Positions 7,193-18,053 of a stretch of 26,000 bases of DNA are shown in pieces. This stretch comes from a virus: the IMG/VR virus record IMGVR_UViG_3300035118_000108, positions 1 through 26,000 of that record; one strand, written 5' to 3'. A program made the translations under genes and the position numbers. The notes below the pieces were generated by a model. That model was not told the origin of the DNA. It saw only the letters and a program-made list of their open reading frames with translations, and ran no database searches. The stretch's first letter is position 1; every line of letters begins with the position of its first letter.

Positions 7193-7567
7193 CTATTGCT
7201 TCCGTGGCATTTGGATCACGCTGGACCGTCCAACATTTTCGTTGCCGCGAGTCGTGCGGCCACCCTTCGCGCCGTAGACCTGGCGCTTCAATCTGAGATC
7301 GTTTGCTTTTTTAAGTTCGCGCTCGATGCGTTCATGTTGCCAATCAGGACCGAATAGCGAAGCAATTGCTAACCTATTGCTTCGCCATTGCTTGCGAGTC
7401 ATGCCCGTCACTCGGGCCCTCTCAGCGTCCGTGCCAGGCACTCGACCCTTCGTCCAATATTCCATGATCAGCAGCAGGTACGCGCCATGCTGCAACGTCG
7501 TCAGATGGCGCGTGTCACGCACATAATCTGCGATATAGAGCGGCATCCAGATCGGGTGCGAGGTCAT
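7193..7567 (-). CDS. DUF1376 (YdaU-like) protein, short form
   Basis: A 124-residue protein. The first 40 residues (HPIWMPLYIADYVRDTRHLT, then LQHGAYLLLIMEYW) match the DUF1376 N-terminal domain very well: PLYIADYxxDTxHLT and HGAYLLLIxxYW. In lambdoid and Rac-type phages such proteins (YdaU) lie in the replication region and are thought to aid replication initiation. Here the domain is followed only by a basic tail (LRLKRQVYGAKGGRTTRG), so the usual long C-terminal half is missing or supplied by another protein. Its start overlaps the preceding stop (ATGA). The role is by family only. Confidence 0.9.
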   Translation of the reverse strand: MTSHPIWMPLYIADYVRDTRHLTTLQHGAYLLLIMEYWTKGRVPGTDAERARVTGMTRKQWRSNRLAIASLFGPDWQHERIERELKKANDLRLKRQVYGAKGGRTTRGNENVGRSSVIQMPRKQ

Positions 7568-8130
7568 AGCTCACCCAATTCGATGTAGCGGGGCCCACCG
7601 ATGATCGCTTTGAGTTCGTCGATCGGCCGCAATTCCTCTTGCGGCACGAAAAAGGCCGGACGACCGCCAGCAGGATCGCTCCAGAATTTTTGAAGTTTGC
7701 CGTCGCCGCCGTAGATCCAACCAACGAGTTGAAACGTCGGCGGATTATGGGCCGACACCAACACGTGCGGACGATCATCCTTGTCATCAGGATGCAAGAT
7801 TAATTGATGCCAGTGCTTGCGCCTGGTCCGCGTCTCGACGCCGCTTTCACCGCCAACATCGACGGACCCGTAAAGCCCAACAGTTCCCGACCAAAACAAG
7901 TTCAGATATTTTGCCGTTGCCATTTCACCTTGGCACGAAAAGAAGTCTGGCTCCCACGCGCCCTCATCTTCGGGTGCGCCATATTTTCCTCGGATGCAGC
8001 GGCGCATATTGCCGATCCGCCGCATCAACGCGGCGTGCGAGGCGAGATACATTTCCGGCCACGTCAGCGTTACCGCTACCGCCGCAGGCAGACAGCGTTC
8101 CGTGATCGTTGAATCGACCAGACGGTTCAT
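7564..8130 (-). CDS. Possible PD-(D/E)XK-fold protein
   Basis: A 188-residue protein whose ATG overlaps the methyltransferase stop (TAATG). Features consistent with a PD-(D/E)XK nuclease core: a helix with Glu69 (CQGEMATAKYL), a strand with Asp91 (GSVDVGG), then GVETRT at 98-103 where the E-x-K motif would be, with Arg in place of Lys, and later strands (HQLILHPDD, HVLVSA, FQLVGWIYGGDG). The order E, D, ExR and a terminal GWI segment fits phage members I know by pattern. The Lys-to-Arg change may alter activity. It is directly translationally coupled to an adenine methyltransferase, which makes a restriction-modification-like or protection role conceivable. Confidence 0.75.
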   Translation of the reverse strand: MNRLVDSTITERCLPAAVAVTLTWPEMYLASHAALMRRIGNMRRCIRGKYGAPEDEGAWEPDFFSCQGEMATAKYLNLFWSGTVGLYGSVDVGGESGVETRTRRKHWHQLILHPDDKDDRPHVLVSAHNPPTFQLVGWIYGGDGKLQKFWSDPAGGRPAFFVPQEELRPIDELKAIIGGPRYIELGEL

Positions 8131-8705
8131 TACGCCACCTCGACGAATCTGTTGACCTGGTTTCCCCAGGTCGTCCAACCAGATCGCGGCTGCCGTGCAA
8201 AAAGCTCGAGGTATGGGCCAGCAACGAGCCGTTGGATGCGACCGTGAATTTCATCCGGCTTGCGCGAGTGCTCGCGCCTCGGCGCAATGATGCCCTGGCG
8301 CACGTCGGCCTTGAGCCGCTTCGGATGTCCGCGCGTGGCCAGCAAACACACTTCGGAATTTGCGCGCGTCCAATAGCCGGTTCCGGCCCACACGTTTTGT
8401 GCGCTGTCGGTCTTCATCCACGCGAAGGCACACGTTTTATATTTGAAGCCCCACCGCTCGATCAGGTGGATGCCGTCGAGCAACATCGGCCAGGTGACCC
8501 ACAAAAATAAAACGCAATCCTTTTTTGCCAGCGAGCCGACATCAAAAAAACCGATCTCGGGATAGGAGATCGTTTGGTAGTGGCGATCGGGCGAGCGATC
8601 GCGACCTTTGTCCGACCAGGTTTCAAAGCGCCAGGGCGGATCGGCAAGGATCGCACCGTAATGAGCTTTGGGAATGTCTTTGAAGGGGACTTGCTTCACA
8701 GCCAT
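8130..8705 (-). CDS. MT-A70 family adenine N6-methyltransferase
   Basis: A 191-residue protein with the MT-A70 signature DPPW at residues 22-25 (YGAILADPPWRFETW). Around it are the usual elements: SYPEIG, CVLFLWVTWPMLLDGI, GFKYKTCAFAWMK, a gate with GTGYWTRANSEVCLLATRG, and RREHSRKPDEIHGRIQRL near the end. This is the phage type that methylates DNA adenine. Start 8705 is inferred: it overlaps the GcrA stop by 10 bases, and the longer frame to 8858 is not supported. It is encoded between the GcrA homologue and the PD-(D/E)XK-like gene. Probable role: modify phage (or host) DNA, or change GcrA-type promoter activity. The target sequence is unknown. Confidence 0.93.
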   Translation of the reverse strand: MAVKQVPFKDIPKAHYGAILADPPWRFETWSDKGRDRSPDRHYQTISYPEIGFFDVGSLAKKDCVLFLWVTWPMLLDGIHLIERWGFKYKTCAFAWMKTDSAQNVWAGTGYWTRANSEVCLLATRGHPKRLKADVRQGIIAPRREHSRKPDEIHGRIQRLVAGPYLELFARQPRSGWTTWGNQVNRFVEVA

Positions 8706-9223
8706 CCCCTCTGCGGGCCGAGCCAGTAGCCACCGTTTCGGTGGTGATGCGATGACCTGTAGTGCGACAGTTGGTGGCAATATTCGCAGAAGCTCGAGCC
8801 AGTCTGCGTCGGTTGACCGCAGTAGAAATACGGACCATCGCCGCGCGGATAGCGACAAAGTCCGGGGCGTAATTGTTCAAACTGCAGTCCGAGAAAATTA
8901 TCCGGCGTCGGGTCGGGATCTATTTCTTCTTGCGGTGTTTGCGCGGTGGCTGGTTTTGGCGACGGCTTCGGTTTCCATGTTGACCTGGCGCGCGGCGGCC
9001 GTGGCACAGACGGCTTTTTATTGCTGAGCGTGAGGCGAAGTCGCCAAACTTTGCCGATCACCGCGTTGCGCGTGAGACCGAGTTCGCTGGCTATTTGGCT
9101 GGCCGATCTATTCGGCCAAAGGCTTTTGAGAAGTTCGACTTGTTCGTCGGTCCAGTAGTTTCTTGCAGCATAAGTGGGCGAGCCGTCCAACAGCACAGTC
9201 GGGGATGACAACGCCTGAGCCAT
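8696..9223 (-). CDS. gcrA: GcrA-family cell-cycle regulator homologue
   Basis: A 175-residue protein. Residues 24-66 (YWTDEQVELLKSLWPNRSAS, QIASELGLTRNAVIGKVWRL) are the hallmark GcrA helix-turn-helix. A Pro/Lys/Ser-rich linker follows, then the C-terminal part LRPGLCRYPRGDGPYFYCGQ and SFCEYCHQL, the Cys-rich sigma-factor-interacting end. In Caulobacter, GcrA binds the housekeeping sigma factor and activates promoters carrying N6-methyladenine at GANTC (made by CcrM). Phage copies occur in alphaproteobacterial phages. The neighbouring gene being an adenine methyltransferase is notable. The symbol names the family and does not claim orthology to the host gene. Confidence 0.93.
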   Translation of the reverse strand: MAQALSSPTVLLDGSPTYAARNYWTDEQVELLKSLWPNRSASQIASELGLTRNAVIGKVWRLRLTLSNKKPSVPRPPRARSTWKPKPSPKPATAQTPQEEIDPDPTPDNFLGLQFEQLRPGLCRYPRGDGPYFYCGQPTQTGSSFCEYCHQLSHYRSSHHHRNGGYWLGPQRGWL

Positions 9224-9286: not shown

Positions 9287-9541
9287 TCAGCAGGCTTGAC
9301 GTTCGGCCTTGATCTCTCGCATGCCCCACAACGAAGGCGGCGCGTAGAAGCCCAAGTCCATGAGTGCCGTTCGGAACAGCACATAAGTGTTGGATGGAAA
9401 GCGCCCGGCCGCGCGCCAGTTCGAAACGTTGGCCGCCGTGGTGCATGCAAGCTTCATGACGGCCTGGTTGCCGCCTAAAGCGTCAATCACCGTGCCACTG
9501 GTTTTGAGAATTGCCGGATTGTCTGAAGTTTTTTTTGCCAT
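9287..9541 (-). CDS. Cro-like HTH repressor
   Basis: An 84-residue protein, first gene of the leftward operon and divergent from the CI-like gene. Residues 17-50 (TVIDALGGNQAVMKLACTTA, then ANVSNWRAAGRFPSNTYVLF) are the Cro/YdaS-type HTH seen in rhizobial prophages, with the VSNWRAAGRFP recognition-helix pattern and the APPSLWGM C-terminal signature. No ribosome site is clear, and the candidate -10 lies only 9 bases upstream, which allows a leaderless message. It probably sets the lytic side of the switch. Confidence 0.9.
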   Translation of the reverse strand: MAKKTSDNPAILKTSGTVIDALGGNQAVMKLACTTAANVSNWRAAGRFPSNTYVLFRTALMDLGFYAPPSLWGMREIKAERQAC

Positions 9542-9650: not shown

Positions 9651-9677
9651 GTGGCGACAATGGGAGTCGGCGTGCCG

Positions 9678-9992
9678 ATGGCTTCAGTTACAGCGATAAT
9701 GGCAACGAGCGGCAAGCGCATGAAGAAGCTGCGCCGTGCGGCCGGGTTCAAAAACGCCTATAACTTCGCAAAGTTCATCGACGTTTCAGCGCCGCGCTGG
9801 AGCAACGTCGAAAACGGCTATCCGATCAGCCGGGACGTGGCCAATAAGATCAAGAAAAAGCTGCCTGGAGTCGATCTGGACTACATCTACGACGGCGAAA
9901 AATCAGGTCTGAGCTTGCTCTGGTTGCAGCGTCTGGACGAGATCCCAGGAGACGCCGAGGCGTCGGGCCTGAAAGGTATCACGTTGCGCTGA
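9678..9992 (+). CDS. CI-like XRE-family repressor (short form)
   Basis: Taking ATG 9678, the protein is 104 residues. The HTH runs from about residue 15 (MKKLRRAAGFKNAYNFAKFI, then APRWSNVENGYPISRDVANK), followed by PGVDLDYIYDGEKSGLSLLW. This is the rhizobial prophage repressor type with a GLS C-terminal signature. It lacks a LexA-like protease domain, so it would not be RecA-cleavable. The start is uncertain: GTG 9651, ATG 9660, 9678 or 9699; GGGAG 11 bases before 9678 gives a slight preference. It is divergent from the Cro-like gene and overlapped at its 3' end by an antisense gene. Confidence 0.82.
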   Translation: MASVTAIMATSGKRMKKLRRAAGFKNAYNFAKFIDVSAPRWSNVENGYPISRDVANKIKKKLPGVDLDYIYDGEKSGLSLLWLQRLDEIPGDAEASGLKGITLR

Positions 9993-16530: not shown

Positions 16531-17617
16531 CCGCCGCCCCCGATGGCGACTCGTTGTTGCTGGGCGACGTCAACGATCGCTACATGCGCCTGATCGGCAG
16601 CAAGCACAAGGACGCCGAAGGCACCGAGTTGCAAGGCAAGCATATCGTCGATCACCCGGACGACAAAAACATTCCGCGCGGCTTTTTCCGCCGCAGCAAG
16701 GATATGCGCGACATCACTCACCAGGACGTTTTGGAATTAAGCGCCTGGCGTGCCACGCACACGGTTGGCAAAGGCGCAAACGAGCGCCCGATCAAACCGG
16801 CCACCGTCAATGACACGGTCGAGCGATTGAAGAAACTGTTCACGTTTATGAAACGATCCGGCGCGTTCTTTCCCAGGAGCCGGACTGGAACGGCCGCATG
16901 ATGTCGGGCTCGAGCCTCTGGCTGGTGGTGCCCAAGACTCACGTGCGCGAATTTACCGAGGAAGAATCCGAGGCGATCGACACCTACACCGAAACCAAGC
17001 GCACGGATCTCGAGCCGTTGATCCGCTTCATGCGCCACACCACGAAGCGCAAGACCAATTGCTTCACCTTGAAGTGGACACAAGTTCACGAGAAGCGCGG
17101 CGTCATCGAGATGATCGGCAAGCACAACACCATCATCACCATCGAGATCGATGACGAGATCAAAGAGATCCTCGACATGGTCCGGGGCCAGCACAAAATT
17201 TATGTCTTCACGCGCCAATCGCAGCGCACGTTCGAGAAGGTGATCAAGGGCAAGCAATACTGCGAGGTGAAGGGCGACCGGCACCCGTGGAACAAGGACA
17301 GCCTGCGCCGGGCCTGGGACACGTTGCGTAGTAATGCCGGGCTCACGGGTGAGACCAGCGCCCGCATGCATGACTTCCGGCACGACTTCGCCAGCAAGGC
17401 GTTGCGCGAGGGCAAGGACGCGGCGACCATCAAGGCGGTATCGGAAAACCTCAACCACGCCAAGATCGAGACCACGCTCAATATCTATGGCCATCTGATC
17501 AAGGGCGGCGCTGCCGATCTGCGCAACAAGGTCACCGAGGCGCGTAAAGCTGCCCGCGTGCAAGCCCGCAGGAAGGCCCTGAAGGACGTCAATGACCCAG
17601 GGCAAGCCAAAGGCTAA
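16356..17617 (+). pseudogene. int: Tyrosine-recombinase phage integrase, frameshifted
   Basis: An integrase read in two frames. Part one (16356-16901) has an N-terminal arm-binding domain (GRYHCYLTIKGKQFHCRTGK) and a core-binding helix (VNDTVERLKKLFTFMKRSGA). Near 16860-16877 the expected continuation (VLSQEPDWNGR, then MSGSSLWLVV...HVREFTEEE) is in the -1 frame. Part two (16898-17617) carries a complete catalytic set: Arg51 (KRKTNC), Lys75 (IGKHNT), His158 and Arg161 (HDFRH), His187 (NHAK) and Tyr197 (NIYGHL). The simplest reading is one lost base; an assembly error is possible. The two frames overlap as ATGA, so translational coupling of a split protein cannot be excluded. Confidence 0.88.
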
Positions 17618-18053
17618 GCCGCGCCACCAGGCGGCGTCTGTGGGCCTGCGCAAGACCCTGGTCATATCGAACTATGACCCCTTGTCCGACGAACTGATCT
17701 TCGAAAACGATCGGGCGGTCTGGAACGTGTCGCGCGCGCTGCGCGATTGTGCGGCCGGAAAGCACGAGTGCTGGGTGATCGACGTTGCGCAGGCCTACGA
17801 GAACAATTCCGCCGTCGAGGTTGACGAAGCCAAGGTCGTCCGCTTCATGCGGACCCCGGCCGTTTTCGAACTACCGCTGATCGGTGTCATGGAAGACGGC
17901 ATGGCCTGGATGATCGACGGCCATCACCGGCTGCGCGCCCTGCAGCGCCTCGGCATCAAGGATGCCGTCTCCTACATCATCAAGGAAGCCGACAGCGCGC
18001 CCTATAAAGTTTGGTACAACGGTCAGCGCAAGCCGCCGTTCAAGGTGATCTGA
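17592..18053 (+). CDS. ParB-nuclease-fold-like protein
   Basis: A 153-residue protein whose start (AAGGA 6 bases ahead) lies inside the last 26 bases of integrase. Residues 109-120 (DGHHRLRALQRL) are the ParB/Srx-fold signature (GxHRxxA-type), after a strand FELPLIGVM and before a strand for AVSYII. The N-terminal part is basic. Proteins of this fold include ParB CTPases, sulfiredoxin-like enzymes and phage ParB-like nucleases. No HTH is present, so it is not a full ParB partition protein. It may regulate or assist integration, or be an accessory nuclease. Confidence 0.78.
   Translation: MTQGKPKAKPRHQAASVGLRKTLVISNYDPLSDELIFENDRAVWNVSRALRDCAAGKHECWVIDVAQAYENNSAVEVDEAKVVRFMRTPAVFELPLIGVMEDGMAWMIDGHHRLRALQRLGIKDAVSYIIKEADSAPYKVWYNGQRKPPFKVI

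Follow-up and report, generated by a model that had tools for sequence, protein, structure and literature searches.

GcrA is a sigma70 cofactor whose binding to DNA depends on N6-methyladenine in GANTC (PMC3667746, PMC7403470, PMC7987155). In the host GcrA/CcrM circuit of Caulobacter and Brevundimonas (PMC3667746, PMC7987155), GcrA combines a helix-turn-helix (HTH) domain with a sigma-interacting C-terminus, and the genome also encodes an adenine methyltransferase, the N6_N4-class enzyme CcrM. In Brevundimonas, host GcrA turns on an operon of 26 prophage genes (PMC7987155). Previous descriptions of phage GcrA and of CcrM-mimicking phage methyltransferases have been separate. The large phiCbK-like Caulobacter phages encode a full-length GcrA, gp222, with host replication genes as proposed target (PMC3556154), and are not known to have a methyltransferase linked to it. 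NPPW/F/Y phage methyltransferases have been proven GANTC-specific in Sinorhizobium and Paracoccus prophages (PMC5537653). The NPPF enzyme PhiLM21_p027, an adenine methyltransferase of a phage replication/early module, methylates GANTC, the mark read by GcrA (PMC5537653); phiLM21 itself has no GcrA match, and the text of PMC5537653 does not mention GcrA. Finally, temperate phage phiPA8 encodes an MT-A70 enzyme, M.EcoPA8orf6770P, which requires the ParB-like product of an adjacent upstream gene (PNB-2) and prefers 16S rRNA, with a >13-fold preference for RNA, while overproduced M.EcoGV, a related enzyme, can methylate GATC in DNA (PMC10810198). M.EcoGIX was also considered as an MT-A70 precedent and was rejected, since it is a beta-class DPPY enzyme.

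At the locus studied here, a phage-borne GcrA homologue overlaps a gene for an MT-A70 adenine methyltransferase. As in the host circuit, a GcrA with an HTH and a sigma-interacting-type C-terminus is encoded together with an adenine methyltransferase. In contrast to that circuit, the enzyme belongs to the MT-A70 family rather than the N6_N4 class of CcrM, and its gene overlaps gcrA within a single phage operon. As in phiPA8, the MT-A70 gene has a co-encoded upstream neighbor, although that neighbor is GcrA instead of a ParB-like protein.

Results

The window, meaning the whole stretch of DNA that was analyzed, is a 26-kb IMG/VR virus record. Profile searches located integrase, excisionase, ERF, YqaJ and CI/Cro-like genes in it, bearing out the original prediction that the DNA is of phage origin; the window derives from a temperate alphaproteobacterial phage with gcrA and the MT-A70 gene in its early operon. 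This leftward operon (minus strand) encodes, in order, a Cro-like protein, GcrA, MT-A70, a phrog_18407 protein and a DUF1376 protein, followed by unknown genes to about position 2100. The small Cro-like gene (9287..9541, minus strand; weak phrog_8008 match) occupies an equivalent position in relatives L359, L365, L376 and L006, where L numbers denote individual loci. The DUF1376/primosomal-type gene lies at 7193..7567 (minus strand; PF07120, E 6.3e-16; phrog_3992). A divergent CI-like repressor gene (9651..9992, plus strand, start codon uncertain; phrog_8 and phrog_2328, E 8e-5 and 2e-3) is followed rightward by the ERF and YqaJ recombination genes, a NinB-like gene, excisionase and integrase. 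A weakly matching ParB-like protein (17592-18053; PF08857, below cut-off) adjoins the integrase; proteins of the ParB-like kind are known to partner MT-A70 enzymes in phages. The phrog_18407 protein (7564..8133, minus strand) displays a PD-(D/E)XK-like motif pattern; similar motifs follow the methyltransferases of L365 (3677-4387) and L359 (3826-4344), and these 3 proteins, which lack mutual sequence matches, may each represent a small nuclease beside a methyltransferase.

The gcrA homologue (8696..9223, minus strand) encodes a 175-aa member of the sigma70 cofactor/methyl-GANTC reader family, matching PF07750 with E 5.5e-22 (79.3 bits against a cut-off of 26.9, covering profile positions 3-151 of 155) as well as PDB entries 7ye1 and 5yiu. 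Its HTH (residues 24-63; 9035..9154, minus strand), whose recognition helix is TRNAVIGKVWRL, aligns with E 5.8e-9 to 5yiu, the structure solved for the DNA-binding domain of C. crescentus GcrA; the stretch TRNAVIGKVxRL is kept, with H-to-W and G-to-R changes at the helix end. The C-terminal sigma-interacting-type domain (8744..8887, minus strand) was assigned from alignments, with its role taken from PMC7403470, and contains C123, C135, C146 and either C149 or H150; positions C123, P126, C135 and C146 are invariant in the GcrA alignment. Taken together, the protein looks to be an intact, full-length GcrA with both functional domains kept. A scan of viral contigs with this GcrA alone as query found no close relatives. 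A GcrA-like gene is also present in a cyanophage (Pseudanabaena phage Pam5, ON014757), GcrA being otherwise known from alphaproteobacteria.

The downstream gene (8130..8705, minus strand) encodes a 191-aa MT-A70 family adenine methyltransferase that matches PF05063 with E 4.1e-30 (105.4 bits against a cut-off of 23.9), covering all of profile positions 1-172/172. The DPPW catalytic motif is at residues 22-25 (8631..8642, minus strand), and the AlphaFold model (pLDDT 86.2) has a METTL3-like Rossmann fold, with METTL3 as its best Foldseek match (E 4e-17) and its best match in sequence too; the Tetrahymena DNA enzyme MTA1c is also among the fold matches. With catalytic motif and predicted fold both kept, the enzyme looks intact. 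It belongs to the same family as the phrog_359 phage MT-A70s (E 6e-75), but lacks the first ~110 positions of that profile. There was no detectable sequence similarity between this enzyme and GANTC-specific PhiLM21_p027, so that, by sequence, the candidate writer is neither CcrM nor a known GANTC enzyme; nothing in its sequence points to a specificity, and GANTC, another DNA site and RNA are all candidate substrates. Altered catalytic motifs (DFPW, DPEW, DPAT) were observed in the MT-A70s of L157 (6001-6555), L365 (2640-3680) and L125 (6001-6600), 2 of which belong to GcrA pairs.

Both family matches were confirmed, as was the reported 10-base overlap between the end of gcrA and the start of the methyltransferase gene (8696..8705, minus strand). 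The 10-base figure assumes an ATG start at 8705. An alternative in-frame GTG at 8699, located 6 bases past AGAGGGG, is better spaced and would reduce the overlap to the 4-base GTGA found in other pairs. Overlaps of 1-4 bases also join the MT-A70 gene to 7564-8133, and 7564-8133 to the DUF1376 gene. Since tight overlap runs down the whole operon, the overlap alone says little about a GcrA/MT-A70 partnership, and the "translational linkage" of the original prediction holds as a description of overlapping genes but not as a trait special to this pair. GcrA-MT-A70 fusion proteins were sought and none was found.

We collected 159 viral GcrA loci, which formed 111 clusters at 80% identity, 17 with an MT-A70 within 6 kb; collapsing a prophage family of ~110 kb left 106 non-redundant phage GcrA clusters. 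Replication genes were the commonest neighbors of phage GcrA. An MT-A70 was present within 6 kb in 12 of the 106 clusters, on the same strand in all 12 and within 2 kb in 11. In contrast, N6_N4 enzymes near GcrA were spread out (8/24 within 2 kb, p 0.001). The same difference was evident in 50 whole records, part of them picked after their MT-A70 neighbors were already known: MT-A70 was within 3 kb of GcrA in 14 of 15 cases compared to 4 of 15 for N6_N4 enzymes, whose positions were matched by hand to GcrA coordinates (Fisher p 0.0005, rising to 0.01 when the 110-kb family is collapsed). Within the unbiased part, 11 of 42 GcrA records carried MT-A70 compared to 1 of 30 controls (p 0.011), an excess that failed to reach significance once the 110-kb prophage family was collapsed (6/37 vs 1/30, p 0.12). 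Members of a family of large prophages in records of 80-132 kb (L175, L176, L177, L180, L186 and L187) carry a divergent MT-A70 0.7-1.7 kb downstream of GcrA, and 3 of them (L176, L177 and L187) also encode one or more CcrM-class N6_N4 enzymes 9-13 kb away.

The slot directly after GcrA held an adenine methyltransferase in 12 of 104 cases, the second slot in 6 of 101, and slots 3-8 in 16 of 502 (p 0.001, first vs 3-8). Counting only MT-A70 and NPPW/F/Y enzymes, the first slot was occupied in 10 of 104 cases compared to 3 of 502 for slots 3-8 (p 3e-6). These p values are indicative only, because some NPPW cases are related (the GcrAs of L370, L371 and L389 are 57-73% identical), the N6_N4 seeds came partly from these very slots, and the gene caller was simple. 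For most phage GcrAs, no methyltransferase was detected in the nearest slots. Exact 4-base GcrA/MT-A70 overlaps with GcrA first occur in L016, L074, L157, L185, L395 and L365, and 4-base overlaps with the methyltransferase first occur in L394 and L419; the GcrAs of the 4-base-overlap loci are mostly 20-45% identical. One of these loci, L157, belongs to a Xanthobacter tagetidis prophage. By both cluster and slot counts, linkage of a GcrA reader to a methyltransferase writer recurs beyond the level of neighborhood, and these counts favor a reader-writer association over chance neighborhood.

Methyltransferases directly after phage GcrA belong to different families, namely MT-A70, N6_N4 and small NPPW/F/Y enzymes. 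In L402, a protein with 51% identity to PhiLM21_p027 lies 35 bp after GcrA, and in L209 the gene of a more distant p027 homologue has a 4-base overlap with gcrA, indicating that a likely writer of the mark read by GcrA can occupy the slot. The MT-A70 of the window would, by analogy, be a candidate alternative writer. A further small NPPW-type family, linked to p027 only through a profile, abuts GcrA in L247, L370, L371 and L407 and lies 175 bp after it in L389. In L370 (5076-5597), L371 (6486-7007) and L407 (6534-7055), NPPW is changed to NTPW or NVPW, and these GcrA-abutting enzymes may be catalytically dead or altered.

Whether the pair is kept in other phages, a point raised by the original prediction, received a divided answer. 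Among phages with window-type ERF/YqaJ genes, GcrA was present at 7 of 106 loci and MT-A70 at 1 of 106, never together, and the MT-A70s nearest to that of the window (L003, L004 and L008) are unpaired with GcrA. L359, L362 and L365, the loci most closely related to the leftward operon as a whole, differ at this point. The gcrA gene overlaps a following MT-A70 gene by 4 bases in L365 and a following N6_N4 methyltransferase gene by 4 bases in L359, and in L362 no methyltransferase follows GcrA. The GcrAs of L365 and L359 are 70% identical despite having different methyltransferases in the equivalent slot. At L006, a Cro-like gene is followed by MT-A70 at a 4-base overlap, and GcrA is absent. These arrangements indicate that the GcrA and methyltransferase genes move independently, with the slot being filled by different methyltransferases.

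GcrA and MT-A70 distances across independent pairs were likewise uncorrelated (Mantel r -0.29), indicating that the 2 genes did not travel as one cassette. A co-phylogeny of the pairs was rejected, as a single 110-kb prophage family supplied all of its positive signal, which was gone once that family was collapsed. The MT-A70 tree requires 16 changes of pairing, at least 5 of them forced by well-supported branches, which together with the uncorrelated distances indicates that pairing arose repeatedly. On the genomes compared, GcrA/MT-A70 is therefore no conserved cassette of the window's lineage, but a combination recurring in unrelated phages (12/106 GcrA clusters). Its independent assembly, and its absence among the closest relatives of each gene, argue that the pair is not an obligate switch.

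We also searched for the sites that such a pair might use. One GANTC site (GAGTC/GACTC; 9664..9668) lies in the CI/Cro switch region and is a candidate methyl-dependent element, although it was picked post hoc with a chance of about 0.014; a site in the switch region recurs in L359, L365, L362 and L376. Across intergenic and divergent promoter regions of GcrA phages, GANTC showed no enrichment relative to other palindromes and controls. Depletion of GANTC (0.4-fold) together with an excess of GATC was considered as a sign of methylation and rejected as uninformative: control phages and unrelated hosts show GANTC depletion as well. The window has 247 GATC sites compared to 125 expected from dinucleotides, and a 1.3-fold excess by trinucleotide expectation. 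YGAKTCK sites numbered 10 compared to 36 expected, with no promoter pattern. At 2194-2216, within a gene, TGATTCG, the consensus for GcrA of C. crescentus, occurs twice in facing orientation, forming an inverted repeat.

Discussion

Sequence comparison reveals apparently intact GcrA and MT-A70 genes overlapping co-directionally in an early operon, and recurrent pairing of phage GcrA with different methyltransferase families. Our preferred explanation, which we consider close to evenly balanced between right and wrong, is that gcrA and the MT-A70 gene constitute an early-expressed reader-writer pair of a kind that alphaproteobacterial phages have repeatedly assembled. By binding both DNA and the sigma70 of host RNA polymerase, the phage GcrA would switch on promoters that carry N6-methyladenine (in GANTC for the known family), freeing the phage from the host's cell-cycle-limited GcrA. 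In infection or induction, when new DNA would otherwise lack the mark, the neighboring methyltransferase would methylate adenines, and as a result host replication genes or phage promoters could be activated early, at any stage of the cell cycle. In this scheme we infer that DNA is the MT-A70 substrate, that the MT-A70 site is the GcrA site, and which promoters are served.

The "epigenetic switch" of the original prediction survives in part. The two proteins look intact, they are neighbors more frequently than expected, a p027-like writer can occupy the slot, and a prophage operon under GcrA control has precedent (PMC7987155). The idea that the same mark is both written and read finds no support, given the lack of similarity to p027, the rRNA preference of the phiPA8 enzyme (PMC10810198) and the lack of GANTC enrichment.

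A possible but less likely alternative is that the two genes are modular neighbors with separate jobs, GcrA reading the host CcrM mark while MT-A70 guards phage DNA from restriction. Small accessory genes gather in phage early operons, and phage methyltransferases usually sit beside replication genes (PMC5537653), which are also the commonest neighbors of GcrA. The unpaired nearest MT-A70s, the solitary MT-A70 of L006 and solitary GcrA of L362, the overlaps throughout the operon, and the discordant GcrA/MT-A70 distances are all consistent with this alternative. Separate jobs do not account as readily for the concentration of MT-A70 and NPPW/F/Y enzymes directly beside GcrA, when they might have been scattered over the early region, or for the substitution of different methyltransferases for one another in one slot.

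A broader version of the reader-writer pair, which we regard as rather doubtful, is that alphaproteobacterial phages carry self-contained modules in which GcrA is translationally coupled to an exchangeable writer of its mark, with unrelated enzymes (MT-A70, NPPW/F/Y CcrM-mimics or N6_N4 enzymes) taking turns in a single slot and MT-A70 being the writer in the window. In its stronger form, GcrA would also be the targeting partner of a bare-catalytic-domain MT-A70, replacing the ParB-like partner of phiPA8. We did not find repeated direct GcrA-methyltransferase coupling with interchangeable enzymes in the open-licence PMC literature, and its novelty is provisional.

It is improbable, in our estimation, that the MT-A70 is an RNA methyltransferase acting on host rRNA to tune lysis and lysogeny, as for phiPA8, with its position next to GcrA incidental. 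The strong RNA preference and adjacent ParB-like partner of the phiPA8 enzyme (PMC10810198), the METTL3 best match in both fold and sequence, the limitation of the 191-aa protein to a bare catalytic domain and the weak ParB-like gene at 17592-18053 argue for such a role. However, that ParB-like gene is 9 kb away rather than adjacent, the DNA enzyme MTA1c is among the fold matches, M.EcoGV can methylate DNA when overproduced (PMC10810198), and such a role would not explain why MT-A70 recurs close to GcrA. We consider very remote the prospect of a restriction-modification-like cassette composed of MT-A70 and a 7564-8133 nuclease with GcrA as transcriptional controller since, although 7564-8133 overlaps the methyltransferase gene, its family keeps an E..D..(E/D)xK/R pattern, and similar-looking motifs occur in genes at the equivalent place in L365 and L359, its fold prediction is poor (pLDDT 54) and matched no nuclease, the catalytic K is replaced by R in the window protein, and other kinds of genes follow most other GcrA/MT-A70 pairs.

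The matching of a regulator to a new writer is directly testable with the pairs of the window, L016, L157, L365/L359, L394, L395, L402, L405 and L419. If the GcrA/MT-A70 pair works jointly as a reader and writer, a phage MT-A70 acting on DNA would have a regulatory role, and phages would possess, in portable form, an epigenetic circuit that is central to the bacterial cell cycle.
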